From Verrucomicrobiota bacterium (GTDB lineage: Bacteria > Verrucomicrobiota > Verrucomicrobiia > Verrucomicrobiales > DEV007): DNA of 62,770 bases. Positions 41,336-58,834 of this stretch are shown piece by piece (position 1 is the stretch's first letter; each line of letters begins with the position of its first letter). A program made the translations under genes and the position numbers. The DNA lies in contig JAHDID010000016.1 in the NCBI GenBank assembly GCA_020630975.1, positions 54,720 through 117,489 on the forward strand, given 5' to 3'. The notes under the pieces were generated by a model that was given only the letters and a program-made list of their open reading frames with translations, did no database searches and was not told the origin of the DNA.

Positions 41336-41367
41336 AATAGGGTACAATTTTGACTGAATAGGGTACA
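41336..41367 (+). repeat. 21-bp tandem array, 2 copies, before the antitoxin gene
   Basis: AATAGGGTACA at 41336-41346 and 41357-41367, again exactly 21 bp apart, with spacer ATTTTGACTG. Bases 41332-41367 are identical to 8376-8411. The array ends 11 bases before the antitoxin ATG at 41379 and starts 17 bases after the gspE stop, so it occupies the whole gap. Confidence 0.75.
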
Positions 41368-41378
41368 ATTTAGAAAGA

Positions 41379-41588
41379 ATGATAAGTAGCGCAGAAATCA
41401 CTGAATTGCCGGTTTCAGAAAAACTTCTGATACTGGAAGCCATCTGGCAGGACTTTCAGTCGCGATATGAGGACTCCGAAATCCCCTCTGAACATAAAAA
41501 AGTTTTAGACCAAAGACGGTATCGAGCTGAAACAGGAGAGACCCAAATTCTCGATTGGGATTCGGTAAAAGACTCCATCGGAAAATAA
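41379..41588 (+). CDS. Addiction-module antitoxin (Unstab_antitox / RelB-like)
   Basis: This short 69-residue protein has the pattern ITELPVSEKLLILEAIWQDF (about 5-24) and an acidic, charged tail, as in the putative addiction-module component family (PF09720). Its stop overlaps the toxin start by one base (TAATG). With the toxin it sits between gspE and gspF, and the 21-bp array lies directly upstream. Confidence 0.85.
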   Translation: MISSAEITELPVSEKLLILEAIWQDFQSRYEDSEIPSEHKKVLDQRRYRAETGETQILDWDSVKDSIGK

Positions 41589-41896
41589 TGAAACAGCTTA
41601 GAATCTCGGCTGAAGCCCTTCGAGATCTGGATGAAGGTTATCTCTTCTACGAGACTCAGGAGCCAGGAGTCGGCGACTACTTCGCTGCTTCTTTAAAAGC
41701 CGATATCGAGAAGTTAAAACTGTCCGCTGGCTCTCGTCGCAAGGTATATCGAGACTATCACCATATGGTAGCGAGCCGTTTCCCTTTTGGTATCTACTAC
41801 ACCTTCGATCAATCCACTGACACAGCTACTATCTGGTACATCATCGACTTGCGCCAAGATCCGGAATGGATAGAGACTAGACTCACCAGTTACTAA
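41588..41896 (+). CDS. RelE/ParE-family toxin
   Basis: The 102-residue protein starts MKQLRISAEALRDLDEGYLFYE and contains FPFGIYYTFDQSTDTATIWYIID, the compact RelE/ParE fold. It presumably targets ribosome or gyrase; which one cannot be decided. The ATG at 41588 overlaps the antitoxin stop. Its own stop is 6 bases before gspF, so the pair is embedded in the secretion operon. A reading frame from 41555 is internal to the antitoxin and was not used. Confidence 0.85.
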   Translation: MKQLRISAEALRDLDEGYLFYETQEPGVGDYFAASLKADIEKLKLSAGSRRKVYRDYHHMVASRFPFGIYYTFDQSTDTATIWYIIDLRQDPEWIETRLTSY

Positions 41897-41902
41897 CACC
41901 AC

Positions 41903-43171
41903 ATGCCTCACTACCAATACAATGCTCTAGCGGCCGACGGCACCAATGTCGCTGGCACGCTGGAGGCGGCTTCTCGTCAGGTGGCACTGACTCAGCTGCA
42001 GGGCGAGGGCAAGCAAGTGGTCAGTCTGAAGGAGACGACCGCTGGCAGCAATGGAGGCGGCAAAGGCAAAGCGAAGGGCAAAAAAGCCTCTGCCAGCGAA
42101 AAATCTATCGGCGATGGCCCGGTCGACCTGAGCACGCGCCAGGTCATCCAGTTCACCGAGGAGATCAGCGACATGCTCGACGCCGGTCTCACGCTGAAGC
42201 AAGCGCTCGACGCTACCGGTGAGCGCAGCGATATCCCCAAACTCCGCCATGTGGCTACCCATATCCGCTCTCGCTTCATCGAGGGCGAATCGCTCGCCGA
42301 CGCCCTGTGCAGTGCATCTGGGAGCTTTTCCAATCTGTATTGCAATCTGGCCTTCGCCGCCGAGCAATCAGGCACCCTCGGCGAGACTCTGGCCAAACAG
42401 GTAAAATATCTGACGGCAATCGAAGAGCTCAAAGGCAAGGTGCGTACCACCCTGATCTACCCAGCTTTCCTGATCACGTCAGCTTTTGCGGTGATCGCTA
42501 TGTTCGCCTTTGTGCTCATCCCCAAGCTCGAGGTGCTGATCGAGGCGACCGGTGGCGAGCTGCCCCTCATCGCCAGTCTCATGTCCCAGGGCACTGCCTT
42601 TCTGCAGGAGCGCTGGTGGCAGGTGCTGGCCATCGTCGTAGCCATCACAGCGGTCATCGTGATCTACCTGACCAGCCCAGCTAGCCGCCCCTTCAAACAC
42701 CGCTTCGTCATGACTTTCCCCGGAGTGCGCACGCTGTATCGCGATTACTTCAATCTGCACTTCACCCAGACTCTGGCCAATCTACTGGGCAGCGGTATGC
42801 AGATCAATCAGGCGCTCGGGCTATGCCGTGGCGTCACTACGAATCCTCTCGTCATCCAGCACGTCGATACCGTAGACGAGGCCGTGAAACGTGGCCAACC
42901 GCTGAACTCTGCGCTGGAGGCAGGCGAGATCTTTGACCGCTCGCTCATCGATATGGCGCGAGTCGGCGTAGACACCGGCGAGCTAGAGACCTCCATGGCC
43001 AAAGCTGCCATCCGTATGGATCGAAACTTCACCCGCCGTATCGATAAATTCACCGCCATGATCTCGCCGATCATCACCGTGATCATCGCGGCTATTGTTG
43101 GCGTCATGGCCTACCTCATGATATCCATTATCTACGACACCATCTCGGCCGTGCGCGATCGAGCGCTCTAG
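41903..43171 (+). CDS. gspF: Type II secretion / type IV pilus inner-membrane protein (GspF/PilC)
   Basis: This 422-residue inner-membrane platform protein starts YQYNALAADGTNVAGTL. It has a Gly/Lys-rich linker (about 50-70) and two GspF repeats (about 75-200, 275-400). Three hydrophobic helices sit near 175-200, 225-250 and the C-terminal IIAAIVGVMAYLMISII. It joins GspE to the pseudopilus. The gene starts 6 bases after the toxin stop with no clear ribosome site, so translation may be coupled to the toxin gene. Confidence 0.95.
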   Translation: MPHYQYNALAADGTNVAGTLEAASRQVALTQLQGEGKQVVSLKETTAGSNGGGKGKAKGKKASASEKSIGDGPVDLSTRQVIQFTEEISDMLDAGLTLKQALDATGERSDIPKLRHVATHIRSRFIEGESLADALCSASGSFSNLYCNLAFAAEQSGTLGETLAKQVKYLTAIEELKGKVRTTLIYPAFLITSAFAVIAMFAFVLIPKLEVLIEATGGELPLIASLMSQGTAFLQERWWQVLAIVVAITAVIVIYLTSPASRPFKHRFVMTFPGVRTLYRDYFNLHFTQTLANLLGSGMQINQALGLCRGVTTNPLVIQHVDTVDEAVKRGQPLNSALEAGEIFDRSLIDMARVGVDTGELETSMAKAAIRMDRNFTRRIDKFTAMISPIITVIIAAIVGVMAYLMISIIYDTISAVRDRAL

Positions 43172-43202
43172 AGCCCCATCCCATTTTTACCCAACGACCA
43201 AA

Positions 43203-43646
43203 ATGAAAACCAATACTGATCCCAACAGAAAGTCGAAGTCCGGCTTCACCCTGCTCGAGATCCTCATCGTGCTCGGCATCATCGCACTCATCGCCGGTAT
43301 CGGCGTAGGCATGATGACCGATGTCTTTGGCGATGCTGGAGAGGTGAAAGCCAAGACCGATGTGAATACGCTGCAGTCCGCACTACTGCGCTACAAGATC
43401 AAAGGCGGCCTCTACCCCACCGAGGCGCAGGGCCTACAGGCACTCTACAAGAAGCCGACTACCAAGCCCCAGCCATCGAGCTGGAAGCCCTATGTGAACA
43501 GCGAGAAAAGTCTGATCGACCCGTGGCAACAACCCTACGAATATCGAAATCCTGGCAAGGTCAATACCGATAGCTACGATGTCTTTTCCAAGGGCCCAGA
43601 CATGAAGGCAGGCACCGAAGATGATATCGGCAACTGGCAGAAATAA
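43203..43646 (+). CDS. gspG: Major pseudopilin (GspG)
   Basis: The 147-residue prepilin has a short basic leader, cleavage after Gly14 (SG|FTLLE, Glu at +5), then a hydrophobic helix and the GspG C-terminal fold with YPTEAQGLQALYKKP and SKGPDMKAGTEDDIGNW. The latter is the calcium loop typical of GspG. It assembles into the secretion pseudopilus. It overlaps gspH by 26 bases. Confidence 0.95.
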   Translation: MKTNTDPNRKSKSGFTLLEILIVLGIIALIAGIGVGMMTDVFGDAGEVKAKTDVNTLQSALLRYKIKGGLYPTEAQGLQALYKKPTTKPQPSSWKPYVNSEKSLIDPWQQPYEYRNPGKVNTDSYDVFSKGPDMKAGTEDDIGNWQK

Positions 43647-44115
43647 CACCCGCCAGCGCCATCAGCGCGGCACGACCCTACTCGAGATAATGATCGTCAT
43701 GGCGGTCATTATCATGGTCACCGCCGCGCTCGCTGTGGTCGTCTATGACGATCCTTTTGAGAAGCAATTTATCGCTGCAGCCGACGAGGTAGAGGCCATT
43801 ATCACGGTGGCCAAAGACTACTCCGTAGCCCAGCGGCGCGATGCCATCGCCCTAGTAGACCGAGGGGCGATCCGCGCCATCCCGCTCAACTCGGCCTCGC
43901 CACTTGGAGCGCTCACACTGGCAGAGGGCTTTGAGTTTCGCATCCTCGATATCGAAGACTCTCGGTGGAAAGCCCCAGAGAATTTCGCCATCACCTTTTT
44001 CGGCAGTGGGCTGAATACGCCCACTCAGATGCAGATCATCCACCCACGCGGGGTCTGCGAGATGGAGCTCAATCCGCTCACAGGCGATATCGAGCGGACC
44101 ATCGCATACGAATAG
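43621..44115 (+). CDS. gspH: Minor pseudopilin (GspH-like)
   Basis: The 164-residue protein has a type IV prepilin leader (RG|TTLLEIMIVM, cleavage after Gly17, Glu at +5) and a beta-rich C-terminus. Its position after gspG and overlap of 26 bases fit a minor pseudopilin. The stop at 44113-44115 is 4 bases before the left 461-bp repeat. No outer-membrane secretin gene (gspD) follows, as expected if the operon was cut or ends here. Confidence 0.8.
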   Translation: MISATGRNNTRQRHQRGTTLLEIMIVMAVIIMVTAALAVVVYDDPFEKQFIAAADEVEAIITVAKDYSVAQRRDAIALVDRGAIRAIPLNSASPLGALTLAEGFEFRILDIEDSRWKAPENFAITFFGSGLNTPTQMQIIHPRGVCEMELNPLTGDIERTIAYE

Positions 44116-44119
44116 CCAC

Positions 44120-44580
44120 ACACTAGACCAGCAGCGACTTCACCAGCCCCGTGCTATCCGCAAAGCGCTCACGATCTAGCCCCAGTAGACGTGCTTGGGT
44201 CAGCCACAGATTCGCGAGCGGCGTCCCCTCTGGCAGGTTGATGTGCTGGCCTCGCTTGATCTTGCCTTTGCCACCAGCCACGATGATCGGCAGATCATTA
44301 TACTGGTGAGTCGAGCCATCGCCCAGTCCACTTCCGTAGGTAAACAGCGTATTATCCAGCAGAGAGCTACCATCTGCCTCCTGGATGTCGGCCATCTTCT
44401 CCAGCAGGTAAACGTATTGCTCCATATAGAACTGATCCACCTTCAGCAGATCATCGATCATCTTGGTCTGGTTGTGCGACATCTGGTGGTGACTGCGTGG
44501 CTTACCATCCTCGAACAACCCCTCAAACTTATAGGGCGTATCCCAACGCTCGGGACCGATCATAAAGGTCGCCACATTCG
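44120..44580. repeat. Left 461-bp direct repeat (3' end of DUF1552)
   Basis: This copies 55322-55782 in the same orientation. Bases 44196-44580 (385) are identical by eye. 44120-44195 has five differences at 44129, 44144, 44156, 44186 and 44195, all at third codon positions and all synonymous. Beyond 44580 the two loci are unrelated. It bounds the inserted region on the left. Confidence 0.95.
44124..44580 (-). pseudogene. Truncated DUF1552 remnant (C-terminal about 150 codons)
   Basis: The frame encodes the same C-terminal residues as the intact DUF1552 protein at 55325, ending STGLVKSLLV. It lacks the Tat signal and the first two-thirds of the protein, and no upstream start makes sense. Synonymous-only differences near its end show it was under protein-level constraint until recently. 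It is not expected to be functional. Confidence 0.9.
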
Positions 44581-44629
44581 CTCGATCACCGCTCTAGATG
44601 ATGAGAAGAGGCAGGCTAATACACTAACA

Positions 44630-45280
44630 CTATTCCAAAACTGTCTGAGTTAAGTTAAGCAAATCTAACACTTCCACAGGCGGACCTGCGAAAGCACCAC
44701 TCGGCATATTCCCCACATACCCAACTGCTTGCCAGCCTTCAGGAGTGCTGTAGTAAGCCCCGGTGCAGATCGTCGTAAATCGGTGAAAGAACTGAACAGC
44801 TTGTCTCTGCCCTTTGCTTTGCGCGGCCGAGTCGCAAAGATCGTCACAGATGGCTTGCTTCTGCAAAGGATCAACTAAATCGGAAAATAACGCTCCGAAC
44901 CGTTTCTCTGCCTCTGAATCGATCCAAGCGATCCCAGGTATGATCACTTCCCGATCCTGCTCTTGTCTTGGATAGGGAGCACTTATCCATTCATCAACAA
45001 AGTCGACAACACCAACCGCACTCGCTGCAGGCCCATGATCATCGGCCGGTAAAATTATATCAGCTAAAGCTTCTGTCACCGCCCTCTGCTGCTGAGTCAT
45101 AGTCAGGGACCAATAGTCTCCCCGTTGGTTAAACGTAGCTAAACTCGGATCGGTTCCATATCCATTGACTACGCCTGGAACGACAGCGCGTCCCAAAACA
45201 GGGCCCCCATTAGCATCCACTGCGGCGAAAGCAGCGAACCACTGCAGAACTTTTCGGCGAGCTAAACGGTTTTCTATCAT
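44630..45280 (-). CDS. Gluconate 2-dehydrogenase subunit 3-like protein
   Basis: The 216-residue protein has a hydrophobic or Tat-like N-terminus (LARRKVLQWFAAFAAVDA). It also carries the subunit-3 pattern TMTQQQRAVTEALADIILPADDHGPAASAVGVVDFVDEWI (from about 60). In other bacteria this small subunit partners a GMC-family dehydrogenase and helps its export. Here it directly follows such a GMC gene on the same strand (15-base gap), so the two probably form one periplasmic dehydrogenase. Confidence 0.85.
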   Translation of the reverse strand: MIENRLARRKVLQWFAAFAAVDANGGPVLGRAVVPGVVNGYGTDPSLATFNQRGDYWSLTMTQQQRAVTEALADIILPADDHGPAASAVGVVDFVDEWISAPYPRQEQDREVIIPGIAWIDSEAEKRFGALFSDLVDPLQKQAICDDLCDSAAQSKGQRQAVQFFHRFTTICTGAYYSTPEGWQAVGYVGNMPSGAFAGPPVEVLDLLNLTQTVLE

Positions 45281-45295
45281 AAGTTATGTCTTGGT

Positions 45296-47086
45296 TTATA
45301 GGTTTCCCTTACGAGCCTGGTCGACTAAGTATTCACCACTCCGCCAGGCTAGTGCCATGATCGTTTGAGTTGGATTCTTATCCGCATTCGAAGCAAAGGG
45401 TGCACCGTCGCAGAGAAACAAATTATCAATATCCCACGTCTGATTCCATTGATTACATACGGAGGTAGCCCGGTCTTCACCCATGATAGCACCACCGACT
45501 TCGTGAATCACCTGCCCACCCTGCAAGATAGTGTCCCGCCCGGACTTTTGGGGATTTGTTAGTGCAGTTCCGCCCATTTCCTCTATTATAGCAGTAAATG
45601 TCTTCTGAGCATGTGCCGCCATATTAAGCTCGTGATCGCTCCACTTCCAGTGCCAACGCATGACAGGTATACCCCACTTATCCGTAACATCGGGGTCAAG
45701 ATCTGCATACGAACCCTCGTTTGGAATCATTTCTCCGCGGCAGGATAGACTAATAAAGGACCCGTAGTATCGCCTCGCTTCCTCTTTTAATTTAGTCCCA
45801 TAGAGCCCTTTCAGATAATGGGCGGGTACGGGCAGATTTCCCTCTGGCATCCGCCTCGTCCCTCCGATTTCGATATGATACCCGCGCGCAAAATCTAATC
45901 TTCCAGCCAACTGATCCTTGTATAGCCACCATGGGCTGTAAAAATGGCACCCGCCAGCTCCATCATCATTGTGTGGCGGAAGATTCTCTAACGCGGGGAT
46001 CTGCCCACGTAAGTCAGACCCCACCGTATCCATGATATATTTTCCTACAAGACCACTCGAGTTGGCTATGCCTTCACCCCCATTCGAGTTGAGCATGATG
46101 CGAACCGACTCACCACTACTAGCAGCAAGAACGACCGCTTTTCCTAGCACACGCTCTTCTTTCCCAGTTGTCTTATCGATAAATAAAACCCCTTTGGCCT
46201 TGCCATCTTTACCTATTATCACTTCACGAACATGAGCGTCCGCTATGATGTCTAGGTTACCCGTAGCCAGAGCTGGAGGGAGATGAACCGTGGTACTTTG
46301 ATAATTAGCCCTGATGCTACAGCCACGACCACAATCCGTCGCCCAGAAGCAGGGTGCACGATTAACCATTGACTCGGCGACGATCTTTTGAGTATCCGCG
46401 TCTTCAGGGTGTAACTGAGCGGCTAGTTTTTTCCCGTCCATAGGCCGAGTCAAGACAGCCCTATGAATCGGCACGACCGGCACACCCATTGCCTTACCGG
46501 CTTTTTGTGTCATCAGGTCACCAACACGACCCTTTGGCGGTGGTTGCAATACACCAGCCGGTGAGTCAGGCGTATTCTCAAGCCCCTCGTTAGTCCCGTA
46601 GACACCAATTAGACGCTCTACTTTTGTATAATAAGGTTCGACATCTTCATAACCAATCGGCCAGTCAAAACCAAGACCATCACGGCTAAATGGCTTAAAA
46701 TCATAGGGCCCATTACGAAGAGAGATCCTCCCCCAGTGATTCGTTCGACCGCCTAGCATTCTAGCCCGCCACCACCTAAACTGCTCTTCCGGATTATCGC
46801 TGCCCTGCGTATACGGCTCATTCGGAACCTCCCACCCTCCGTTTACAGTAGCATCATAAAAACCAAAAGGTTTATCAGGCGTACTAGATCCACCAAGTGG
46901 CGCATGATCACCACGCTGCATCATGGGTGTCTCAGTCTCTGGCACGTAGGATCGTCCAGCCTCTAGCATGACACACTTAAGTCCTGCTAGACAAAGAGTA
47001 TAGGCCATCTGGCCACCGCCAGCACCAGAACCGACAATCACGACATCATATTCTTTTTTGCTTCTCGAGATAGGTATGGTAGCCAT
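45296..47086 (-). CDS. GMC-family FAD-dependent oxidoreductase
   Basis: The 596-residue flavoprotein has an FAD-binding DVVIVGSGAGGGQMAYTL at about 14-31. Its C-terminal catalytic segment is HEVGGAIMGEDRATSVCNQWNQTWDIDNLFLCDGAPF with the NPTQTIMALAWRSGEYL tail. It would oxidise a sugar or alcohol. No signal peptide is evident, which fits export by hitchhiking on the Tat-type subunit 3 encoded next. An Fe-S-like pair CFWATDCGRGC near 246-256 is noted but unassigned. Confidence 0.9.
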   Translation of the reverse strand: MATIPISRSKKEYDVVIVGSGAGGGQMAYTLCLAGLKCVMLEAGRSYVPETETPMMQRGDHAPLGGSSTPDKPFGFYDATVNGGWEVPNEPYTQGSDNPEEQFRWWRARMLGGRTNHWGRISLRNGPYDFKPFSRDGLGFDWPIGYEDVEPYYTKVERLIGVYGTNEGLENTPDSPAGVLQPPPKGRVGDLMTQKAGKAMGVPVVPIHRAVLTRPMDGKKLAAQLHPEDADTQKIVAESMVNRAPCFWATDCGRGCSIRANYQSTTVHLPPALATGNLDIIADAHVREVIIGKDGKAKGVLFIDKTTGKEERVLGKAVVLAASSGESVRIMLNSNGGEGIANSSGLVGKYIMDTVGSDLRGQIPALENLPPHNDDGAGGCHFYSPWWLYKDQLAGRLDFARGYHIEIGGTRRMPEGNLPVPAHYLKGLYGTKLKEEARRYYGSFISLSCRGEMIPNEGSYADLDPDVTDKWGIPVMRWHWKWSDHELNMAAHAQKTFTAIIEEMGGTALTNPQKSGRDTILQGGQVIHEVGGAIMGEDRATSVCNQWNQTWDIDNLFLCDGAPFASNADKNPTQTIMALAWRSGEYLVDQARKGNL

Positions 47087-47089
47087 CGT

Positions 47090-48682
47090 TTAATTGGTGA
47101 ATTCGCCAAATGGGCGGTTTTTAAATTGTGTCAACTCCTTAGAGAGTGCCGCAGCCAATCCCTTTACTATATCAGGATTAGACTGATATATATTTTTTGT
47201 TTCTTCAGGATCTACGACAAGATCATATAGTTGATCTGCATCGTAATAACTATTATTAGCTTTGGCTGCATAATGACCTAAATGACTATTTCGAGTGAGA
47301 TATGGACGCGGCAAATACTCGCCAAAAAAACCTTGAAACAGTTCACCTGCATCGATCCGCTTTTGAATCTTAGGTGGATACCGAACGGCGATATATTTCC
47401 AATACTTCGTTTTAATACAACGAGAGTGACCTAGCTCACCAAATAAAGACTCTCGGATAGGGATATCCTCTCCAAAAAGCAAAGCCCGAAAACTCAACCC
47501 ATCAAACTGATAATTAGCAGGAGGATTAACGCCACATAGATCCATCAAAGTCGGTGCCAGATCAATATTAGCCACTAATTGATCACATCTAGTTCCCGGC
47601 TTAATTTTATCAATCCACCTAGCCAGAAGCGGCACCCGCATACCAAAATCATGCAATGTTGCCTTTCCATGCCGCCAAGCACCATGATCTGGCACAAACA
47701 AAATAAGAGTATCTTTCGCTAAGCCCAGCGCTGCAATCTTATCGACGATCGCACCGATCCCATCATCGAGCCAAAGTGCATAAGCGTGCCTATCCTGAAA
47801 CCCAGCTTCACGATTTCGGCGTAGCACATCCTGCCGGCTAGGCATGATATCGGGTCGATCTGCTAGGAACCCCTCTCCCGTCATACGGGGATCTGCATTT
47901 AAAGAAAAATCATTTCTCCAGGGGGCCGGACCATGATGGAGCGTTGTCGAAAAGTAAAGGAAGAAAGGACGATCTGCAGCATCCCGAACATCTAGAAACT
48001 CAAGAGCATGCTCAACAGTCCATTCAAGGTTGTGCACATTTAACTGATTATTATAAAGCTCTTTTAAATTTGCTGCATAAACACCATCGGCATAATCGAA
48101 TCCATAACCTTTGATTTCATCGCACCAACGCCTATGATTCCTTTGCATTTTCTCGTTTACCTTCGGATCCTTAGGGTCAGCTGACTTATCGTAGGTCTCC
48201 AAGGGACTATCTTCAGGATGATCGAACCAATCATGCCTGATAAAGTGACTCTTTCCAACGAATCCGGTGCGATAGCCGTTCTGCTGGAGTATTTTTGCTA
48301 AATTCCATCCACCGGGCTCAAGTTCACCAATGTTTTCAACTTGAGTTTGATCACCAGGCGGATGCTCTTTGAGGAATCGCGGACCTTCACAGCGGCCTGC
48401 ATACCTCCCAGTAAGAAAGCTGTAGCGAGAAGGTGAACAGACTGTTGAAGTCACATTAAAGTCAGTGAAATACATGCCCTCATTGGCCAGCCGATCTATC
48501 CTTGGAGTGTGAACCCCGCCCCCCATAAATCCGAGAGAATCCCAGCTTTGGTCATCAGTGATAATGAACACAATATTAGGTTTATCCTGCTCTGCACTGA
48601 GTCGGTTAGGTATCACAGATACCACGACATAGAGCAGTATCGAAAATATAATACTAAAGTTCATAGATGATTTTTGTAACAC
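47090..48682 (-). CDS. Secreted sulfatase (type I)
   Basis: This 530-residue (GTG start) S1-type sulfatase has a signal peptide (hydrophobic 9-24). Metal ligands are TDDQSWD near 42-48, and the FGly site CSPSR is at Cys82 from this start. Later come GFVGKSHF and LFVPDHGAW. It would desulfate a glycan outside the cytoplasm. Start uncertain: GTG 48682 or ATG 48664, with GGGAG 2 bases before the GTG and too far from the ATG. It lies between the GMC and GH99-like genes. Confidence 0.9.
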   Translation of the reverse strand: MLQKSSMNFSIIFSILLYVVVSVIPNRLSAEQDKPNIVFIITDDQSWDSLGFMGGGVHTPRIDRLANEGMYFTDFNVTSTVCSPSRYSFLTGRYAGRCEGPRFLKEHPPGDQTQVENIGELEPGGWNLAKILQQNGYRTGFVGKSHFIRHDWFDHPEDSPLETYDKSADPKDPKVNEKMQRNHRRWCDEIKGYGFDYADGVYAANLKELYNNQLNVHNLEWTVEHALEFLDVRDAADRPFFLYFSTTLHHGPAPWRNDFSLNADPRMTGEGFLADRPDIMPSRQDVLRRNREAGFQDRHAYALWLDDGIGAIVDKIAALGLAKDTLILFVPDHGAWRHGKATLHDFGMRVPLLARWIDKIKPGTRCDQLVANIDLAPTLMDLCGVNPPANYQFDGLSFRALLFGEDIPIRESLFGELGHSRCIKTKYWKYIAVRYPPKIQKRIDAGELFQGFFGEYLPRPYLTRNSHLGHYAAKANNSYYDADQLYDLVVDPEETKNIYQSNPDIVKGLAAALSKELTQFKNRPFGEFTN

Positions 48683-48721
48683 AGCTCCCTAAGCGGGCTA
48701 AATCGGCCAAAAAATTCCGCG

Positions 48722-49762
48722 TTATCGGCAATTATCTTTGAACTCTCTAATTTTTTGAAGATAAGCCTCGCCGTACTCTTCTGCTGGCTCGACACTTGTC
48801 CCTTCCCACCATTCATTAAACGATGTCACAAATATCATGCTAGGAACGCCTTCGACTTGTTTCCCCGACTTAGCTATCATACCGGCAGCCTCTAACAGAG
48901 TCAGAAAATCGTCCGGTGTCCCAAGCATGCGAGGATGACCTCGAAAATCATGATACCGAGGGATCACTCCTGGAAAAAACACCGTCTCACGAGCCCAGTC
49001 CCTAAAAATCGGAAAAGCTTCCCGCGATTGAAAGCTTAACGCCGAATCACCCTCTATGACCTTCCGAGGCTCAAACATGTTGTAAGCACTGTATGCGTCA
49101 AACACGCCTAGCCCATTATGAGCTGTCCCCGGCTCTGCCTGATCTCCAAAAAATGCCTCATCACCTATCGTGAAAAGCTCTACCCCTATCGCTTGCTCAA
49201 GCAGGTCCAAGTGATGATGTTCAAAATTCCGTAGGACTCGACTCACGTAGAAACCAACCACGGGACGACCACCAATAGAGAAATATTGCTCGTGCCCAAA
49301 ATGATTTGCCTTCAAATCGATAAAGTCGGACACCATTTGCTGCATAGGCCCTGGCTGGCTAAAATCAACTATTCCATCTTTCTTACCGTCAGTCTCATCG
49401 AGAATGCCTAAGGTCTCGTAGTAAAGACCATATCGGATCTTACTCAAATTTTTTGCTTTTAGAAATCCAGACCTGAGATGGCGCGAGGTAAGAGTGTCAC
49501 TACCCCACCATGATACGAAGAGTGCATCGATACCATATTGACTAGCCCAGTCGACGTGCTTCTCAGCAATGCTCGGGTCGTCGGTGCCGTACTCCCCCAA
49601 AATCGGGGACTCCACGTACTCATGCCTCGTCCAGTCGCCTGCATGATACCAAGGGTAATAATAAGCCACTACAGCTGGCTGAGACCCTTCAGCAAAACCA
49701 CTGGTTCTGTAGAACCCAAAAATCGCGATAAAAAAACAACGAAACCAAAATGAAGCCATCAA
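48722..49762 (-). CDS. GH99-like glycoside hydrolase family protein
   Basis: The 346-residue exported protein (signal peptide about 1-25, ending GFAEG) has motifs of GH99/GH71-like barrels: VVAYYYPWYHAGDWT near the mature N-terminus, DALFVSWWG and MIFVTSFNEWWEGTSVEPAEEYGE near the C-terminus. GH99 members act on alpha-mannans. With the neighbouring sulfatase and lyase-like protein, it suggests attack on a sulfated algal or animal glycan. Substrate is inferred only. Confidence 0.8.
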   Translation of the reverse strand: MMASFWFRCFFIAIFGFYRTSGFAEGSQPAVVAYYYPWYHAGDWTRHEYVESPILGEYGTDDPSIAEKHVDWASQYGIDALFVSWWGSDTLTSRHLRSGFLKAKNLSKIRYGLYYETLGILDETDGKKDGIVDFSQPGPMQQMVSDFIDLKANHFGHEQYFSIGGRPVVGFYVSRVLRNFEHHHLDLLEQAIGVELFTIGDEAFFGDQAEPGTAHNGLGVFDAYSAYNMFEPRKVIEGDSALSFQSREAFPIFRDWARETVFFPGVIPRYHDFRGHPRMLGTPDDFLTLLEAAGMIAKSGKQVEGVPSMIFVTSFNEWWEGTSVEPAEEYGEAYLQKIREFKDNCR

Positions 49763-49814
49763 GTATCATCACTCCAGATCAATAACATATCGGCCTACAA
49801 AGACAGATTTTCCT

Positions 49815-52800
49815 TTAATTATTTGAGCTCCGAGTCACCTGCCAACTACGATCATTGAACTCTACCTCCACTTCCTTTCCGCTCAATTGCACCGTTACCG
49901 ATGACGTTTCTCCTTTGGTAACTATCGATACTGTATCGGCCACAGCCTGAGGCGAAACCTCCAGACGGTGCGGCACAAAAACGGTTACAAAAATCGACGT
50001 CCGATCCGATTCCAAAATCTCCGATGCGTGTGCCGTAATAGGCCGATCAAATACACCTCTCGTCTTTGACTTAGCGAATGTCATTCGCCTAGCACTCGTG
50101 AGTCCAATATCGCGACCGTCGCACGCTTCCATAACAATCGTAAGACTGCCTCCTGCACGGTATGGAAACCCAGCGAATGGAGTCGGAAACAACTCAGCCA
50201 AAGGCTCTGTGAACCAGTTTTCTCCACTATCACAACAGCTCAACAACTGCCACAACGGCCCACCTCGTTGCCCCACCAAATCAGCTCCAGCATCCAGTTC
50301 ATCCCTTACCACCAAGAACCCCTCATCGGAGAGAAGTATCCGTCTCCGCAGCTGCGCATCTGCCTTCAGATAGTTTTTCCAGACCACTTCTCCATAGGCA
50401 TCTCCACCACGATTTTCGACACTCGCATGCTTGAGGGAGGCAGGTAAGTAGGTGGTACTACTATCCGCACCAAAGAGATAATCACTAGGCATCCCCTGCC
50501 TTACCGACTCTCGCCATCGCAAAAACCCTGTAAAACTCTTTCCTTTATATTTCATATCGATTAGCAGATCGGTGAACTCTTCCGCTGGCAATTCGAGGCC
50601 GAAATAATCTTGCTTAGGTGCGAAATACTGATATCGCTCCATGGCAGGATCTATCTTTATCGCATACCTGCCTTGGGAACAATCGGAAACCAGCGAGTAT
50701 GGCGAGGCCTGATCTTTGGGCCAATGTGACGGTAGCAAGATCGACTCTAGCGACTCACAATCGAACAGTACCACCTCCTTTTTCGGCCCTTTGAGACGGA
50801 TATTGTCGACCAGTAATTCCGTCTCACCAGCACCAATCAAATCCATATAATGAATCTGATTAAACACTAGATATCCAGCATCTGTCACCATCCGTCGATC
50901 TAGTGGAAATCGATGAGTAAGCCATTTATCTGGTTCCCAGTCGGCTCGACCGAAAGGAAAATCCTGATCATCTGACCCTACCCACACCACATTATTGATG
51001 AGGATGTTTGTATTTTTGTTAGTTCGTAGGAAAGGTATACCCGCTGTCTCGAAATAGGGGATTGCTGGGCGCTTCTCGTAATGCCCATGACCACCGCGCC
51101 CAACATCGAGTAAAACTTGGGACGCTCCTGGATCGTTACTCGTGCGCAGCACGATTTTATCACGGATAGATTCATACCCCTCACCTCGGCGCACCTTTCG
51201 ATCGATCACATGACTTAGAGGTAGATTAGCTTGCTCCGAAGCTGGAAATGAGTCATCAATCGAATCGATTAGATGACAATGGACTAATGCCTCAGTGATA
51301 TCTCCAGTTAGCTCGTAACCAGCATTCTCTCGAGTCGCCCATAGTTTGTCGGCAACGTATGCAAAACTAGAGTCACCTAATAGTTTACCAAAATCTTTTA
51401 ACAAAAGCACCGCCTCCAATTGCCCACCGAGAGCGAAATGCTCGTCACCATAGGTGGGGATATATCCAGACGGAGATACTATATCACGCACCCTTCTGAA
51501 GGACTGAGCAATACCAGGCCGTTGCCCTAAAGTCACATCACTCCCCATGATCTCCGAAATCTGCAACATCCTCCTCAAGGTAATTCTGGAGTAGGAAGGC
51601 GCATTCTCTCCCCAATCCTCATCAGCTAGCCACTGATCCCAGCGCTGCTGAAGTGCCTCTCTAGCGGGAGCAAATTCAGCATCATCTGGAAAAATCTGAA
51701 AGGCAACGGTAGCTGCACCAAACGCAATCGTGCCCCCCCAGTTATCAGCCTCTGAGATAGTCGCCCCCCGAATCCAGTATGGCTGACAGTGAATCGCCAA
51801 CTCACGAAACTTTTCGATCCGCTCACGCGATAGTTTCCCTGCCTTCTGTAGAGCATTGGTACCCCGAGCTAGCGGAGCCATCGAAAATACATTTAGAATC
51901 GACTTCTCTGAACGGTCGTTAGGGTGTGCGTGCTTTTGCGCTACATAACTGTCCAAGACCATATCATACAGCATCTCACCCCACTCGAGCGATTCTGAGT
52001 GATCAAATTTTAATCCGTATAGGATCATGAATGATGCTGTAGCCCCCTGAGTCCGAGCCGCTCTCTGCTGCATGATCGCCTGCGGTGTCGTGGCGAGGTT
52101 GATATCGGCTGCCTTTTTGAGATAAGCATGGTAGGAGGCCGGGACTCGCCTTCCCCGAGTTTCCTGGGCACTTGCAGACTCTTTGGGCATAGTGACTGGA
52201 GGCTGAGTCATCTTCCCAAAGACCTGCGCGCGGTAGAGATGTAAATCACTCCGGCCTTCAGCAGTCCGGCCCAGCTTGATAAAACGCGCCCTGTAGCCAG
52301 AGAGATCGATCACTCTGCTGCCCGCTCCAGACTGAGCAACCCACGCTTTTTCCCAAGTCAACCCATCTAGCGACACCCACACTGTCAAATCCGACTGAAG
52401 CTCCCCTTCATCGTGACGCGGTGCCCGAAAGGCACGAGTCTCGAGACGCTCCAGCTCGGCTACCCCCGGTAGCTCGATAATAATATGCGGCTTGATCCTT
52501 GATAATCCGATCAGCCAGTCGCGGTCGAAATCGTGATCCCAAAACACAAAGTCAGATAACGTGCCAAGGTCGGCATGGTGATGAGATAGACTAAGATTCG
52601 CCCCATCCGAAATACAGCCAGTAATAAGCTCTGCCTCCTGTCTAGACGGTTTTTCTGACAAAAGATGGTCAAACAGTGTGGGCTGGATGGTGTAAGAGGA
52701 CTTCAGCCAGCGAGCCAGCCGCCGATAATAAGCCTCCCGATCAAGAGCCTCCGACTCGAATTGGCTGATCAAAAACGCTTGCATGGGAGGATGCCGACGA

Positions 52801-53249
52801 CTGAAATCGCCCCAATCGAATCGGATAGCTATCGAATTGGGCTCCCCGATTTCCAGCAGCTCACTTAGGTCTATCTGATCGTCTTCCAGCAGTTCTCCAT
52901 TTACCCATAACCGATACGGAGTATGCGCATCCTGCACCGCCCCGTAAATCCGAGAGCCTCGCCATGAAGGGGGGATAATGACGTCACAGACCGCCCAAAG
53001 AAAACTACCATCGGGCTGCGGCGGAAGCTTCTCCAGAGTCTGCGCTAGCTGATGAGATAAAGTACTCTGCCAGCCTACCCGATCAGCTCCAGCTGGTAAC
53101 TGCTCCCCACCCGCGCCAACCGACCAGCCCTCGGCCAAAGGCAACGTCCGATCGAATGGATCGACTCGGTCCAGATTCGCAGCCCGCGCAGCGAAGGTGA
53201 TTAGAGCGATAGCAGCGATCAAGTAAGGAAGTATGATATTAGGCTTCAT
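49815..53249 (-). CDS. Large exported lyase-like protein, heparinase II/III-type C-terminus, 1144 aa
   Basis: A signal peptide (about 1-24, ending RAANL) is followed by a GH2-like beta-sandwich (about 40-145, YRLWVNGELLEDDQ), a discoidin-like domain (about 205-335) and a helical toroid (about 370-660). A beta-sandwich follows from about 700 with GRGGHGHYEKRPAIPYFETAG, resembling the heparinase II/III catalytic-side region. A specific polysaccharide-lyase family cannot be named by eye. It is the largest island gene and is divergent from the sigma/FecR pair. Confidence 0.7.
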   Translation of the reverse strand: MKPNIILPYLIAAIALITFAARAANLDRVDPFDRTLPLAEGWSVGAGGEQLPAGADRVGWQSTLSHQLAQTLEKLPPQPDGSFLWAVCDVIIPPSWRGSRIYGAVQDAHTPYRLWVNGELLEDDQIDLSELLEIGEPNSIAIRFDWGDFSRRHPPMQAFLISQFESEALDREAYYRRLARWLKSSYTIQPTLFDHLLSEKPSRQEAELITGCISDGANLSLSHHHADLGTLSDFVFWDHDFDRDWLIGLSRIKPHIIIELPGVAELERLETRAFRAPRHDEGELQSDLTVWVSLDGLTWEKAWVAQSGAGSRVIDLSGYRARFIKLGRTAEGRSDLHLYRAQVFGKMTQPPVTMPKESASAQETRGRRVPASYHAYLKKAADINLATTPQAIMQQRAARTQGATASFMILYGLKFDHSESLEWGEMLYDMVLDSYVAQKHAHPNDRSEKSILNVFSMAPLARGTNALQKAGKLSRERIEKFRELAIHCQPYWIRGATISEADNWGGTIAFGAATVAFQIFPDDAEFAPAREALQQRWDQWLADEDWGENAPSYSRITLRRMLQISEIMGSDVTLGQRPGIAQSFRRVRDIVSPSGYIPTYGDEHFALGGQLEAVLLLKDFGKLLGDSSFAYVADKLWATRENAGYELTGDITEALVHCHLIDSIDDSFPASEQANLPLSHVIDRKVRRGEGYESIRDKIVLRTSNDPGASQVLLDVGRGGHGHYEKRPAIPYFETAGIPFLRTNKNTNILINNVVWVGSDDQDFPFGRADWEPDKWLTHRFPLDRRMVTDAGYLVFNQIHYMDLIGAGETELLVDNIRLKGPKKEVVLFDCESLESILLPSHWPKDQASPYSLVSDCSQGRYAIKIDPAMERYQYFAPKQDYFGLELPAEEFTDLLIDMKYKGKSFTGFLRWRESVRQGMPSDYLFGADSSTTYLPASLKHASVENRGGDAYGEVVWKNYLKADAQLRRRILLSDEGFLVVRDELDAGADLVGQRGGPLWQLLSCCDSGENWFTEPLAELFPTPFAGFPYRAGGSLTIVMEACDGRDIGLTSARRMTFAKSKTRGVFDRPITAHASEILESDRTSIFVTVFVPHRLEVSPQAVADTVSIVTKGETSSVTVQLSGKEVEVEFNDRSWQVTRSSNN

Positions 53250-53373
53250 AAAACAACAAACAGATTACACATCGCAGTCGGAGATGTATCCCAGTCTGCC
53301 TCACTGATATCCGGTACAAAAATTGGGCCGATATCAAGCTAATCAGGAGTATCACGATGGAAGACTACACATT

Positions 53374-53904
53374 TTGAGCGCTCAAACACCTTCAGAAAAA
53401 GACTTCGACCGATTATTCGAGACTCACGAACTGAGCCTTAGACTCCATGCTCGTGCGCTATTACCGAATTGGGATGCAGTAGATGAGGTGATGCAAATAT
53501 CTAGCGTGGTGATGTGGAAAAAAATCAGCCAACTTGATGAGGAAACTGCCTTTTTACCATGGAGCAAAGTGATCATCCGATTTGAAAGCCACAAATACTT
53601 CCGTAATCGCCATCGAGATCCCCTATTATTCGATGCCGACGTTTTGGATATTCTTTCCTCAACTATCGAAGAACAAAATGAACCTGATCTCGATGCTGAG
53701 CAAGCTGCCCTCGATCAATGCCTGACGGCTTTGTCTCCAACTGACCGCGAGCTCGTACTAGCACCCTACTGCGGCCACGGATATATGACAAAACTTGCGG
53801 AAATAAAGGGCTGCACACGTAACAGTCTCTATAAACAAGTTCGCCGCTTACGCAAAAAGTTGGAAAACTGCGTCTCGCGTCAACTCGACACAACTCAATC
53901 ATAA
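53374..53904 (+). CDS. ECF sigma factor (PVC type)
   Basis: This is an extracytoplasmic-function sigma-70 factor with region 2 (LRLHARALLPNWDAVDEVMQISSVVMWKK) and region 4 (SPTDRELVLAPYCGHGYMTKLAEIKGCTRNSLYKQVRRLRKKL) both present. The start is uncertain: TTG 53374 (preceded by GGAAG) gives a family-like N-terminus, while TTG 53323 adds 17 residues. It is followed by FecR with a one-base overlap (TAATG). It probably controls the island genes. Confidence 0.88.
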   Translation: MSAQTPSEKDFDRLFETHELSLRLHARALLPNWDAVDEVMQISSVVMWKKISQLDEETAFLPWSKVIIRFESHKYFRNRHRDPLLFDADVLDILSSTIEEQNEPDLDAEQAALDQCLTALSPTDRELVLAPYCGHGYMTKLAEIKGCTRNSLYKQVRRLRKKLENCVSRQLDTTQS

Positions 53905-55274
53905 TGAACAACTCAGCCGAAGACCTCATAGGTAGCTACCTCGATGGAACCATCTCTCAAGAAGAGATGGCCGAGCTCCAGGAGCATCTGCGCCATGACT
54001 CTAAGGTGCGAGATCGCTTTTTGAGTATGCTCAGAGTTGATGGCCTATTACGCGAGGTTGCTAGTCGTCCAGACACCGCCATATCTCGCCTTTCCTCATC
54101 ACATAGGAAACCAATCATTTCGCTAACCGCCTGGGCATTGGGTTGCCTTTTAGCCATAATTGGAGTTATCTTGTGGCTACTACCATCATCCCCAACTATC
54201 CCCGTAGCAAATGTCGGTGAAGTGCGATCTGCAAAATGGCTGTCCACTCCGTTGGCGCCTGGCGAAAGACTGACATCAGGACACGAGATCAAATTAGCTT
54301 CAGGCAGCATCGATATACACTTCGATACCGGAGCCTTTGCCAGTATCCATGGGCCAGCCCACTTTGAGATAGGCCCTGCGAATCATGCATTCCTCCACTA
54401 CGGGAAAGCCTATGCAGAAGCTGATACAGAAACCTCTGAAGGTTTTACGATCCAGACCCATGCTGGCGAATTCGTGGATCGTGGCACCAGATTTCTAGCC
54501 ACAGCATCGCCTGATGGTTTTAGCCAAGTGCACGTCACATCTGGGATGGTCGACGTGAAGACTCCAGGGTTTGCCCATCGCAGCGTCACGGACGGTGGAG
54601 GCATCGGTATCGAGTCGGGCCAGATACCTGTAATGATTCAAATTGAACCGGGCTTGTCGACGCCTGATTTCAGCTTTCCTAATCTACCACCTCCAAGCCA
54701 GACAGACTATGCGTCACTTCACTCTGACACCGTCGACATGAGACTAGTGACCAGTGAAAAATCTCGCCGCCCAGGGGGCATCCACCCCAATAGTGGGAAC
54801 ACGGAGGTCCTCTTCGATGGTGATGGTCAAACATCACACGACCGACCTTATGAATCGGTCTTCTTCGACAACTCAATACATGGCCATTTTTTACTCAATT
54901 TAGGGAAAAGTATACCCATATCGCGAATACATACCTACTCTTGGCATCGTAATGCGGATAACCCTCAGGAAACTCTCCGCGCCGTTCAGCGTTACACACT
55001 ATGGGGAAGTAATGCAAAGGCAGCCCCGCAGTTTCCGAGCCCAGAATGGACACGGATCGCCCGAGTCGATACCGATGCCTTCTTCGACGTCAAAGCTGAG
55101 CAGATCCCTGACCGCCCTACTCAGCAAGCCTGCGCCATCTTTTCGAATGGAGGCAGCCTAGGCAACTATCGGCACTTGCTTTTCGAAGTCTTACCTACCT
55201 CAAACTTTGATGGCCATTTGGTCCATCATACTTTCTTTGGTGAAATCGATATTTTTGAAGCTACAAGTGAATGA
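53904..55274 (+). CDS. FecR-like anti-sigma / sensor with glycan-binding C-terminus
   Basis: The 456-residue protein has a short cytoplasmic anti-sigma segment (YLDGTISQEEMAELQEHL), a membrane helix (about 73-92) and a periplasmic FecR domain (about 120-220). A C-terminal F5/8-type domain follows (about 265-450, with a jelly-roll pattern). The layout matches PVC systems that sense a polymer outside and free the sigma factor. It is the partner of the sigma gene just before it. Confidence 0.85.
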   Translation: MNNSAEDLIGSYLDGTISQEEMAELQEHLRHDSKVRDRFLSMLRVDGLLREVASRPDTAISRLSSSHRKPIISLTAWALGCLLAIIGVILWLLPSSPTIPVANVGEVRSAKWLSTPLAPGERLTSGHEIKLASGSIDIHFDTGAFASIHGPAHFEIGPANHAFLHYGKAYAEADTETSEGFTIQTHAGEFVDRGTRFLATASPDGFSQVHVTSGMVDVKTPGFAHRSVTDGGGIGIESGQIPVMIQIEPGLSTPDFSFPNLPPPSQTDYASLHSDTVDMRLVTSEKSRRPGGIHPNSGNTEVLFDGDGQTSHDRPYESVFFDNSIHGHFLLNLGKSIPISRIHTYSWHRNADNPQETLRAVQRYTLWGSNAKAAPQFPSPEWTRIARVDTDAFFDVKAEQIPDRPTQQACAIFSNGGSLGNYRHLLFEVLPTSNFDGHLVHHTFFGEIDIFEATSE

Positions 55275-55321
55275 GACTAAAGCGGTCAGTCAGCTCAAAC
55301 CATGCTGGAATGTAATACCCT

Positions 55322-55782
55322 ACACTAGACAAGCAGCGACTTCACGAGCCCCGTGCTGTCCGCAAAGCGCTCACGATCTAGCCCCAGCAGACGTGCCTGG
55401 GTCAGCCACAGATTCGCGAGCGGCGTCCCCTCTGGCAGGTTGATGTGCTGGCCTCGCTTGATCTTGCCTTTGCCACCAGCCACGATGATCGGCAGATCAT
55501 TATACTGGTGAGTCGAGCCATCGCCCAGTCCACTTCCGTAGGTAAACAGCGTATTATCCAGCAGAGAGCTACCATCTGCCTCCTGGATGTCGGCCATCTT
55601 CTCCAGCAGGTAAACGTATTGCTCCATATAGAACTGATCCACCTTCAGCAGATCATCGATCATCTTGGTCTGGTTGTGCGACATCTGGTGGTGACTGCGT
55701 GGCTTACCATCCTCGAACAACCCCTCAAACTTATAGGGCGTATCCCAACGCTCGGGACCGATCATAAAGGTCGCCACATTCG
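55322..55782. repeat. Right 461-bp direct repeat (inside intact DUF1552)
   Basis: This copy is the natural 3' end of the DUF1552 gene. It matches 44120-44580 at an offset of exactly 11202 bases. It lies 47 bases after the FecR stop and marks the right edge of the putative island. Confidence 0.95.
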
Positions 55783-56689
55783 TCAGTCCCGTCTGCAGGG
55801 CCGTCACCATCAGATCCCCCATCAGGCGGATGTATTCCCCGCGCGGCAGGTAGCTCTCGGGTGGCTCGTCCATGGTCACCTTGGCCAGCTCCGCCCGCAT
55901 CGACTCGAGTCGCTCCATCTGTACCTCGATCGAGCGGATCGAGTCGTAGTATTCCGAAAATTTCTGCTGATCAGCGTAGCCCAGATCACGCTTCACACTG
56001 TGCGCATCGGCCAACACCAGATCGGTGATGTCGCGATACCCCTCGATTTCCTGTGTGGAGAACAGTCGGCGATACATCTTGCGCGGGCTACGGATCGAAG
56101 GCGCCAGATGCCCCGTGCCGTACCAAGAGATATTGTCGAAGTAGATCGACTCTTTGTTATCGCGATGGCTATTGCAGCTAAACTCGAGGGTGGAGAAAGG
56201 CGTCTCCTGACCGATCTCATCGGCCACGATATGGTCTAGCGTGCGGTCCAGCGGCCAGGCCGATTGCTTGATGGTGTAGGGCTCGGCACTGCTCAGATAG
56301 CAGGAAGCACACTGCGCATGCACATCCGTGCCATTCTGAAAAGTACGGTCCATCCCAGTGATCAGCGATAGCTGGTCCTTCATCCCCGCAAGCGGCTGCA
56401 TCGTCGGTGTGAGATGCTCGAGCGGCCTAGTGCTAAAATTGGGGTCCTGCTCGCCCAGCGACTTCATGACGCCACCGAGATTGCCCTTGGGGATGATGTG
56501 ATCGGCCTCGCCCGGGAAAAATCCACGCCGCACCACACCGATCGGCACGTAGTAGTGAGCCATCCGCTGGCGCACGGTAGCCGCAGCACTCAGGCTCTCC
56601 AGCCAGGGTAGTGATAGCGCCGCACCGCCGATGCCTCGGAGAAAATTGCGTCGGCTATGATCTGGGTTCCATCGGCTTCTCTTCATCAA
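55325..56689 (-). CDS. DUF1552 protein, Tat-exported
   Basis: The 454-residue protein begins with a twin-arginine signal (HSRRNFLRGIGGAALSLPW), so it is folded before export. The family is PVC-specific and nearly always paired with a DUF1592-type cytochrome c; the biochemical role is unknown. The C-terminal 150 residues are duplicated at 44124. It starts 6 bases after the DUF1592 stop, in one operon. Confidence 0.88.
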   Translation of the reverse strand: MMKRSRWNPDHSRRNFLRGIGGAALSLPWLESLSAAATVRQRMAHYYVPIGVVRRGFFPGEADHIIPKGNLGGVMKSLGEQDPNFSTRPLEHLTPTMQPLAGMKDQLSLITGMDRTFQNGTDVHAQCASCYLSSAEPYTIKQSAWPLDRTLDHIVADEIGQETPFSTLEFSCNSHRDNKESIYFDNISWYGTGHLAPSIRSPRKMYRRLFSTQEIEGYRDITDLVLADAHSVKRDLGYADQQKFSEYYDSIRSIEVQMERLESMRAELAKVTMDEPPESYLPRGEYIRLMGDLMVTALQTGLTNVATFMIGPERWDTPYKFEGLFEDGKPRSHHQMSHNQTKMIDDLLKVDQFYMEQYVYLLEKMADIQEADGSSLLDNTLFTYGSGLGDGSTHQYNDLPIIVAGGKGKIKRGQHINLPEGTPLANLWLTQARLLGLDRERFADSTGLVKSLLV

Positions 56690-56695: not shown

Positions 56696-58834
56696 TCAGT
56701 GTGGGCTGGCGACATAGTCGCTGTCTTTGGCTAGGTGGGTCTTGCTGAGAAAAGGCTCGCTGATCACGATGGCTCGGATCATCGCCTGAAAGCGATAGTC
56801 GCCAGCCTGCGTGGCATCGACGATCTCATCGAGCGCTGGCTGGTCGGCAGGCCCCAGTCGACGAGCCAAGGCAAAGGAAAGCAAGTGACCTGCCAACCCT
56901 CGAGCGAAGCGGTCTTTCTCGGCTAGGATGGCATCCTTAAACCCGATCACATCGGTGAACTCGTGCTTCCGAAACAAGGTGCCACTCATATCGACTTCGC
57001 GCCCGTTTTCATACTCCTCGCGCCAGCCACCGACAGGATCGTAATTCTCCAACGCGAAACCCAGTGGATCGATCTGCTCATGACAGCCCCGACAATCCGA
57101 CCGCTCACGGTGCATCGATAGCCTCTCGCGCAGGGTCAGGTGCTCCTCGCCCTCCGGCGGTTTCTCACCGAGCGCAGGCACATCGGCAGGCGGCGGCTTT
57201 GGCGGATTGTTAAAGATCACACTCGCCATCCATGCGCCACGAGTGATCGGCTGAGTGCGCTCTGGACCAGATGTCATCGTCATCACCGCCGCATTGGTTA
57301 TTACTCCACCATAGCGACGGTCTTCCAGCGGATAGCGATGAAATGGGATAACAGTAGGCGGCCTCAGATTGGCTTTCTTCATCTTACCGCTTTTCGGATC
57401 CAGCCTAGCCACCTGCTCGTAGCCGAGACTGGTGTGTAGGAGATCTGAGCGGTAAGTAAAGTCGGGATCGATCAGATCCATCACCGGACGATCCTCGATA
57501 AGTACAGTCTCAAAAACCAAGAGAGGCTCCAGCATCATATGCATCGAGGCTTTGTATTTGGAGAAATAAAAATTGGGATAAGCCTCCCGATCTGGCACCG
57601 AGGAAATGATGCGATCGAGCTGCAGCCACTGCGCGGGAAAGCTGTCGCAAAACCGCTTGATACGCCGATCCTCCAGCATCCGGCCGACCTGCCCTGACAA
57701 GACACCACCATCCAACAATTCACCACTCTCAGCCAACTGCAGCAGCTCATCATCCGGCAGCCCTCCCCACAAAAAGAATGACAACCGCGAAGCTAATTCC
57801 CCTGCAGAGACCCGACTCGTGCCCTCATTCCCGTCCTGAGCTCCTTCGTAGAGATAGAGAAACTTTGGTGAAGCGATCGCTGCCGAGGCGACCCGCTTCA
57901 TCACCGCGGCATGATCATCCCCCTCCTCAAGTCCAGCCGAGGCATAGGCGACATAGCGATCCAGCACTTCAGCCTCCGGTTCACCGCGAAAGGCTCGCGT
58001 CAAAAACACAGCTATCCGCTCTCGCACCAGTCCCGCATCTGACTGCTCCGACTCAGGCGGCGAAAAAAACTCATCCCATATCCCGACATTTTTACGCACA
58101 AAATCAGGGCTATCGACGATCGACCGACTCAGCTTCATGAACGACTCCATGAGCAGAGGCGACAGCGATAGGTGGTCGGCCTGAGTATCATAGCCATGCT
58201 CCGCTCGGAGATCCTGCGGAAAAGGCGCGACACCAGCCAGACGCGGCTCGATCATCTGACTCTTTCCCAGCGGTCGCGAGCCGACATGCACCGTCTCGGC
58301 CATCACACCTGTCTCTGGCTGGAAATAGTCCCTGTGCTCGCGCATGATCCGCTCCGGCAGAGAGTAGATCACCCGATCTAGCTGGAACAAATCCTGCACC
58401 GCATTGGCATAGAGAAAGCGGTTCATCCGCCGGATCGGAGTCGGCGGGTAAGTCTTTTCCTCCGACAAAGACTGATCTAGCACCGCCTCTAGAGCCGCCA
58501 ACAACTCCTGCCGCCGCTCCGGATCGATCTGCGGCTCCTCCTCCGGAGGCATTTCCTCAAAGTCGATCACATCGATCAAATCCGCCACCAAGTCGAGATT
58601 GTCGCTGAGATCGCCCAATTTCTCGATCTGCAGGAGATCGACCTTTCCTTTCACCTTGCCAGACTCGCCATGACAGCTCACACAATACTCGGCAAAGACA
58701 GGTTCGATCAGCTCTGAGAAAGAATCACTTGCAGAAGAGTTTAAGATAAGTAAGGAAAAACACCCCACTATGCAGGTAAGTGTTAGGGTTTGCTCCAAGC
58801 GGTCTCTCCTCATCCTCTTGAGCAATCTACCCAT
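56696..58834 (-). CDS. PVC cytochrome c protein (DUF1587/1592/1588/1585)
   Basis: The 712-residue exported protein has two c-type heme sites, CVSCHG (about 52-57) and CRGCHE (about 583-588, followed by QIDPLGFALENYDPVGGWR). Between them is the DUF1587-DUF1592-DUF1588 architecture, with DUF1585 at the end. These are periplasmic redox proteins of planctomycetes and verrucomicrobia with unproven substrates. It is the first gene of the DUF1592-DUF1552 operon. Confidence 0.9.
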   Translation of the reverse strand: MGRLLKRMRRDRLEQTLTLTCIVGCFSLLILNSSASDSFSELIEPVFAEYCVSCHGESGKVKGKVDLLQIEKLGDLSDNLDLVADLIDVIDFEEMPPEEEPQIDPERRQELLAALEAVLDQSLSEEKTYPPTPIRRMNRFLYANAVQDLFQLDRVIYSLPERIMREHRDYFQPETGVMAETVHVGSRPLGKSQMIEPRLAGVAPFPQDLRAEHGYDTQADHLSLSPLLMESFMKLSRSIVDSPDFVRKNVGIWDEFFSPPESEQSDAGLVRERIAVFLTRAFRGEPEAEVLDRYVAYASAGLEEGDDHAAVMKRVASAAIASPKFLYLYEGAQDGNEGTSRVSAGELASRLSFFLWGGLPDDELLQLAESGELLDGGVLSGQVGRMLEDRRIKRFCDSFPAQWLQLDRIISSVPDREAYPNFYFSKYKASMHMMLEPLLVFETVLIEDRPVMDLIDPDFTYRSDLLHTSLGYEQVARLDPKSGKMKKANLRPPTVIPFHRYPLEDRRYGGVITNAAVMTMTSGPERTQPITRGAWMASVIFNNPPKPPPADVPALGEKPPEGEEHLTLRERLSMHRERSDCRGCHEQIDPLGFALENYDPVGGWREEYENGREVDMSGTLFRKHEFTDVIGFKDAILAEKDRFARGLAGHLLSFALARRLGPADQPALDEIVDATQAGDYRFQAMIRAIVISEPFLSKTHLAKDSDYVASPH

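Follow-up and report, generated by a model that had tools for sequence, protein, structure and literature searches.

A block of foreign-looking DNA is located at the 3' end of a gene for a DUF1552 protein in a member of the Verrucomicrobiota, and we consider this locus, with a probability of roughly 55%, to be the scar of an insertion-duplication caused by a single crossover. One homologous exchange at the DUF1552 3' end would have inserted the block and would have duplicated 461 bp of the gene. The locus resides in the 62,770-nucleotide stretch of contig JAHDID010000016.1 that was analysed here and is referred to as the window.

The repeat pair and the DUF1552 gene

Two direct repeats of 461 bp (44120-44580 and 55322-55782) enclose the block. 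They agree in 456 of 461 bases (98.9%) and have a spacing of 11,202 bp. When the left copy was used as a DNA query against the draft genome (95.8% complete, 158 contigs), exactly these two places were retrieved and there was no third match. The right copy (55322-55782) is the 3' end of an intact DUF1552 (HXXSHH) gene on the minus strand (55325-56689, 454 aa, PF07586). Its upstream partner, also on the minus strand, encodes a planctomycete-type cytochrome with Pfam matches to DUF1592/1588/1585/1587/1595 (56696-58834). A gene of the DUF1592 type adjoins DUF1552 in 15 of the 16 loci from relatives as well, the sixteenth being a short contig. The left copy (44120-44580, DUF1552 coding strand minus) is a truncated 461-bp DUF1552 3' end with its stop codon at 44123-44125. 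It starts 4 bp past the stop codon of gspH and ends abruptly at 44580. The initial annotation, made from the sequence letters and open reading frames, had described a block bracketed by 461-bp repeats, the right one being the end of the intact DUF1552 gene and the left one a remnant at gspH. Both statements are borne out, the former by the two genome matches with their five differences and the latter by PF07586 and the coordinates. It had also stated that loss by recombination would restore gspH next to DUF1552. In agreement with this, joining the flanks at the repeat by script yielded an intact DUF1552 frame of 454 aa, which ends 7 bp from gspH. Two hallmarks of a single crossover are thus present: the insert is enclosed by direct repeats of a single target stretch, and an intact target reappears once the insert and one repeat are taken out.

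For comparison, 1.24 of 7.14 Mb of the genome was sampled on 22 readable contigs, after five small ones consisting entirely of N had been dropped. This sample contains 104 pairs of direct repeats that measure at least 150 bp and lie more than 1 kb apart within one contig, and the 461-bp repeats are the only pair of this length and spacing with at least 90% identity. There is no N inside the window, and a 100-N scaffold gap ends directly left of its first position. Long tandem-repeat arrays with spacings such as 108, 297 and 405 bp were noticed near the contig ends of C3, C5 and C6 of the same genome and hint at repetitive genes of great length at which the assembly breaks off. An exceptionally long 'open frame' in a related genome (G024) was rejected because it reads N over most of its length.

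The distribution of the mismatches between the repeat copies is informative. All five (left-copy positions 44129, 44144, 44156, 44186 and 44195) fall within the terminal 76 bp at the stop-codon end of DUF1552, and the remaining 385 bp are identical. The probability of such clustering at either end is about 2e-4, for an end point that was picked after seeing the data. All five affect third codon positions without changing an amino acid (P about 7e-4 to 2e-3). Given 385 identical bases, divergence in this part is at most 0.8% (95%). At the rate of the terminal 76 bp, about 25 mismatches would be expected there; none was observed. The right copy shares GAC at one mismatch site and CAG at another with most relatives, the other three sites being uninformative, and the right tail looks ancestral at the two polarizable sites. 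It is also more GC-rich than the left tail and in this respect unlike the block, which is low in GC at third codon positions (GC3). A decaying dead copy is not expected to stay synonymous or to diverge at one end only. The two tails thus most likely come from two alleles, both of which were functional, and the mismatches most likely arose before the left copy became non-functional. The identical 385 bp would then have been shared, copied or homogenised recently. This two-allele reading of the mismatch pattern is new compared with the initial annotation.

Composition and gene content of the block

The block (44581-55321) comprises 10,741 bp with a GC content of 49.0% and carries seven genes with GC3 values from 0.38 to 0.50. 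Values for 11 of the 13 flanking genes measured range from 0.64 to 0.74; only the genes for a small ParE-like protein at 41555 (0.50) and for a phosphoesterase at 34948 (0.53) fall below this range. None of the seven block genes exceeds the 10th percentile of the 671 open reading frames sampled, which were called mechanically, have a length of at least 190 aa and include the block genes themselves. With a GC3 limit of 0.505, chosen with the block in view, the seven genes form the longest run in the 1.24 Mb, followed by runs of six, four and four. The AT-richness reported earlier for the DNA between the repeats holds: its GC content places it in the bottom 1.3% of the 2040 overlapping windows of the same size from the sampled part of the genome, some other windows being lower still. 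Since all seven genes are low in GC3, the block looks foreign by composition. None of the three other low-GC3 runs has a flanking repeat within 3 kb on each side, the right flank of one of them extending over only about 0.9 kb. The run of six genes (contig C12, 49055-59125) may be a foreign block in its own right and shows no direct repeat in the flanking sequence available.

Genes on the minus strand of the block encode a gluconate 2-dehydrogenase subunit 3-like protein (44630-45280, PF13618), a GMC oxidoreductase (45296-47086, PF05199/PF00732) with relatives of about 80% identity, which is presumed to be the partner of the adjoining subunit 3-like protein, a sulfatase (47090-48682, PF00884), a GH99/WbsX-type protein (48722-49762, PF14307 and PF16317) and a protein of 1144 aa without family match (49815-53249). 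On the plus strand follow an ECF sigma factor of the Rhodopirellula/Verrucomicrobium family (53323-53904, TIGR02989 above cut-off) and its presumed partner, a FecR-like protein with a putative zinc finger (53904-55274, PF04773 just above cut-off, PF13490). Matches in Pfam and NCBIfam thus uphold the sulfatase, the GH99-like protein, the GMC dehydrogenase and the sigma/FecR pair named in the initial annotation. Its designation of the giant protein as 'lyase-like' is unproven, as the 1144-aa protein matched nothing in Pfam (E<=5), NCBIfam (E<=0.001) or PDB sequences (E<=1). A search of a genome-contig collection returned no confirmed relative of this protein, and nothing was found at genus, family and order level either, where 55 other genomes were searched. 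Weak matches with 23-29% identity occur in 4 of 386 other genomes of the phylum. Structure prediction from the single sequence was unusable (mean pLDDT 35.7). The widest gap between the seven genes is 73 bp; the family scan covered these seven, the remaining listed open reading frames being antisense overlaps. As originally noted, no integrase is encoded within the block, which is filled by six genes assigned to non-integrase families and the gene for the 1144-aa protein. PF00589 gave no match on the contig of the window, and the four tyrosine integrase matches of the genome are all on other contigs. To judge by the protein families only, the gene set of the block probably serves the oxidation of sulfated glycans and sugars under sigma/FecR control.

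Parts of this set recur in the genus. Sigma factor, FecR, GMC, Gluconate_2-dh3 and sulfatase genes are found in locus L207; L208 has the same genes without the sulfatase. L209 carries FecR, GMC, Gluconate_2-dh3 and sulfatase genes, its contig ending beyond FecR, and L211 carries genes for sigma factor, FecR, GH99-type protein and sulfatase. The GH99/WbsX-type copy in L211 is 66% identical and lies between FecR and sulfatase. Sigma factor and FecR genes occur alone in L210, as do GMC and Gluconate_2-dh3 genes in L212 and L213. Of the 72 loci retrieved with the GMC protein, 6 have a sulfatase copy of 64-69% identity close to the GMC gene. As far as gene content indicates, the block genes are, except for that of the 1144-aa protein, of kinds that occur together in the genus. 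The block resembles the sigma/FecR-led sets in L207, L208, L209 and L211, where sigma factor and/or FecR genes lie by GMC/Gluconate_2-dh3, sulfatase or GH99-type genes. It differs from the sets in L207-L211 in that the full combination, the divergent orientation, the 1144-aa gene and the flanking repeats are seen only here.

The initial annotation had proposed a recombination-dependent 'catabolic cassette'. This proposal found no support: direct repeats of at least 100 bp at more than 1 kb spacing were detected in none of the seven cargo-sharing loci L207-L213 (for the short contigs L209 and L211, the search did not cover the ends), and the pair described here is the sole one of at least 150 bp and more than 1 kb spacing with at least 90% identity in the genome sample. 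L212 and L213 have short-spaced repeats, which do not flank cargo genes. Direct repeats of at least 100 bp and more than 1 kb apart are present in only one of the 16 DUF1552 loci from relatives (L067), where they have 70-74% identity and lie at a distance from DUF1552. Repeat-free copies of the island in relatives had been named as evidence against the proposal. In this regard the outcome is divided: seven loci with part of the cargo are free of such repeats, but none has the whole island and two are short contigs. It appears quite improbable to us that the block still cycles, i.e., that recombination between the repeats frees a circle, restores DUF1552 beside gspH and allows the circle to re-enter this or another DUF1552 gene.

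Neighbourhood in relatives and search for a donor

The left neighbour of the remnant is gspH (43621-44115, plus strand, Pfam N_methyl), which encodes a type II secretion pseudopilin and is the last gene of gspEFGH. Homology to gspH of relatives is weak (24-29%), with the same order after gspE, gspF and gspG. In four of the six relatives examined (L074, L076, L078 and L080), gspH is followed by the convergent secretin gene gspD; this is not the case in L075, and L077 is ambiguous. Because gspH faces gspD in these four relatives, its position beside DUF1552 is, on the basis of gene order, a derived arrangement. The gspD block of the genome studied here is found on another contig (C1, 59955-66715), where the genes coming next encode ribosomal protein L19 and argininosuccinate synthase. 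Type II secretion is thus encoded in two places, the window (gspEFGH, 39657-44115) and C1, and in the related genome G025 the two sets are far apart on one contig. The ParE-like protein mentioned above (113 aa, 41555-41896) is encoded between gspE and gspF; its gene is low in GC3 and its Pfam match is below cut-off.

An empty site in related genomes had been suggested as a check, and none of the relatives examined shows one. A gsp match was obtained in none of the 16 DUF1552 loci fetched from relatives, of which 14 have sequence beyond DUF1552 and none belongs to the same species. As gspH is poorly conserved, this search rests on gspE, gspF and gspG. We infer the supposed empty site, which would itself be derived.

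The genome with the most similar DUF1552 (G024) keeps the order deacetylase-DUF1592-DUF1552 and has a FecR-sigma pair convergent at the DUF1552 3' end (L057, 12092-15475). Its FecR and sigma factor are 31% and 30% identical, respectively, to those of the block and belong to a large paralogous family, FecR matches being present in 27 of 33 genomes of the genus. Closer homologs of the block pair exist elsewhere (FecR 48%; sigma factor 56%, in L210). The spacer between FecR and DUF1552 in the window folds no better than shuffled sequences.

In the 72 GMC loci, all DUF1552 matches have at most 37% identity, and the closest DUF1552 among the 55 other genomes is 83% identical. Searches for near-identical plasmid DNA and among viral contigs yielded no match. 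In the plasmid collection, 590 records match the GMC protein, all with less than 60% identity. Neither a donor nor an empty site nor a circle was found in the relatives, plasmid DNA and viral contigs searched. The genome contains a ComEC-like gene, which renders DNA uptake possible without demonstrating it.

Origin of the locus

In the single-crossover reading, the block would have arrived on a molecule in which it adjoined the 3' part of a closely related DUF1552 allele. In the likeliest form, a linear fragment would have closed into a circle and integrated. The resident DUF1552 3' end would have stayed behind at gspH as a non-functional remnant, and the tail of the intact gene would now be the incoming one. 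As a plain crossover between diverged alleles should leave mismatches throughout, either gene conversion or a crossover point within the repeat, just beyond position 76, has to be assumed in addition. The earlier statement that a circle and one crossover give exactly this arrangement thus stands for the anatomy but not for the mismatches at one end, which call for this additional step. We infer the circle, the direction of transfer and its recency. A precedent comes from E. coli, where 56 of 60 Lac- clones obtained with linearised DNA carried a target duplication; the 14 duplications sequenced measured 109-950 bp and were attributed to a single crossover with a circle shortened in homology (PMC3240628). 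As in these clones, a stretch of the target gene is repeated directly on both sides of the insert, and 461 bp lies within their range. The present case differs in being a natural scar with foreign cargo, an intact target, a putative circle and mismatches at one end. Besides the confined mismatches and the fruitless search for a donor, an empty site or a circle, two observations argue against the single crossover: the FecR-sigma pair facing DUF1552 in G024, so that the right junction might be old, and the ancestral-looking right tail, which is not marked as incoming and, being richer in GC, does not resemble the block.

The main rival is homology-facilitated illegitimate recombination, which we regard as possible but clearly less probable. 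Here, a linear fragment would have paired at the right end in DUF1552 and joined non-homologously at 44580, the resident 3' end being displaced, not deleted. The sharp change at position 76 would be explained if the crossover occurred just beyond it, the 385 bp then being resident in both copies, and the ComEC-like gene is in line with such an origin. One-sided homology, a non-homologous other junction and a displaced 3' end would be shared with the process as described in a study that proposes a similar displacement leaving a 3' end for Vibrio effector loci and also puts the frequency of the process several orders of magnitude below that of ordinary recombination (PMC5361080). In the E. coli experiment, it accounted for 4 of 60 clones as against 56 duplications (PMC3240628). 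Whereas it usually results in an insertion-deletion, the target is partly duplicated in the present case, and copying from a sister chromosome would, by our reasoning, be needed to duplicate resident sequence. It is rather unlikely that the side with DUF1552 and FecR is old and the left copy came later, as a DUF1552 3' fragment moved or copied next to the block with or without gspEFGH. The gene order and convergent FecR-sigma pair in G024, the derived gspH junction (gspH faces gspD in four of six relatives, not here) and the right tail with its two ancestral-looking sites point this way. The low identity of the G024 pair within a paralogous family that has closer members elsewhere speaks against it, as does the GC3 of the block sigma factor and FecR genes, which is as low as that of the other block genes.

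An assembly artefact, either from two mixed strains or from a wrongly resolved repeat, is more doubtful still. The draft of 158 contigs contains 100-N gaps, one of them directly left of the window, an exact repeat of 385 bp is hard for short reads, and the same graph can be read as a chromosome and a free circle. However, the window is free of N, and a false join at 44580 requires a chance junction outside the repeat. Site-specific elements can replace the 3' end of a gene, as e14 does in icd, and insertion at a 3' end with restoration of the reading frame would fit such an element whose integrase has since been lost. Usual attachment cores are, however, far shorter than 385 bp, and an integrase is not among the seven genes filling the block; we give this origin hardly any credence.

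The locus reveals no new mobile system. If the block did cycle, strains would exchange glycan cassettes without a recombinase of their own. As the scar of a single crossover, it would be a natural case in which a probable catabolic gene set was gained without an integrase, with the junction sequence supporting an origin from two alleles, and would serve as an example of how to distinguish such scars from mobile elements.
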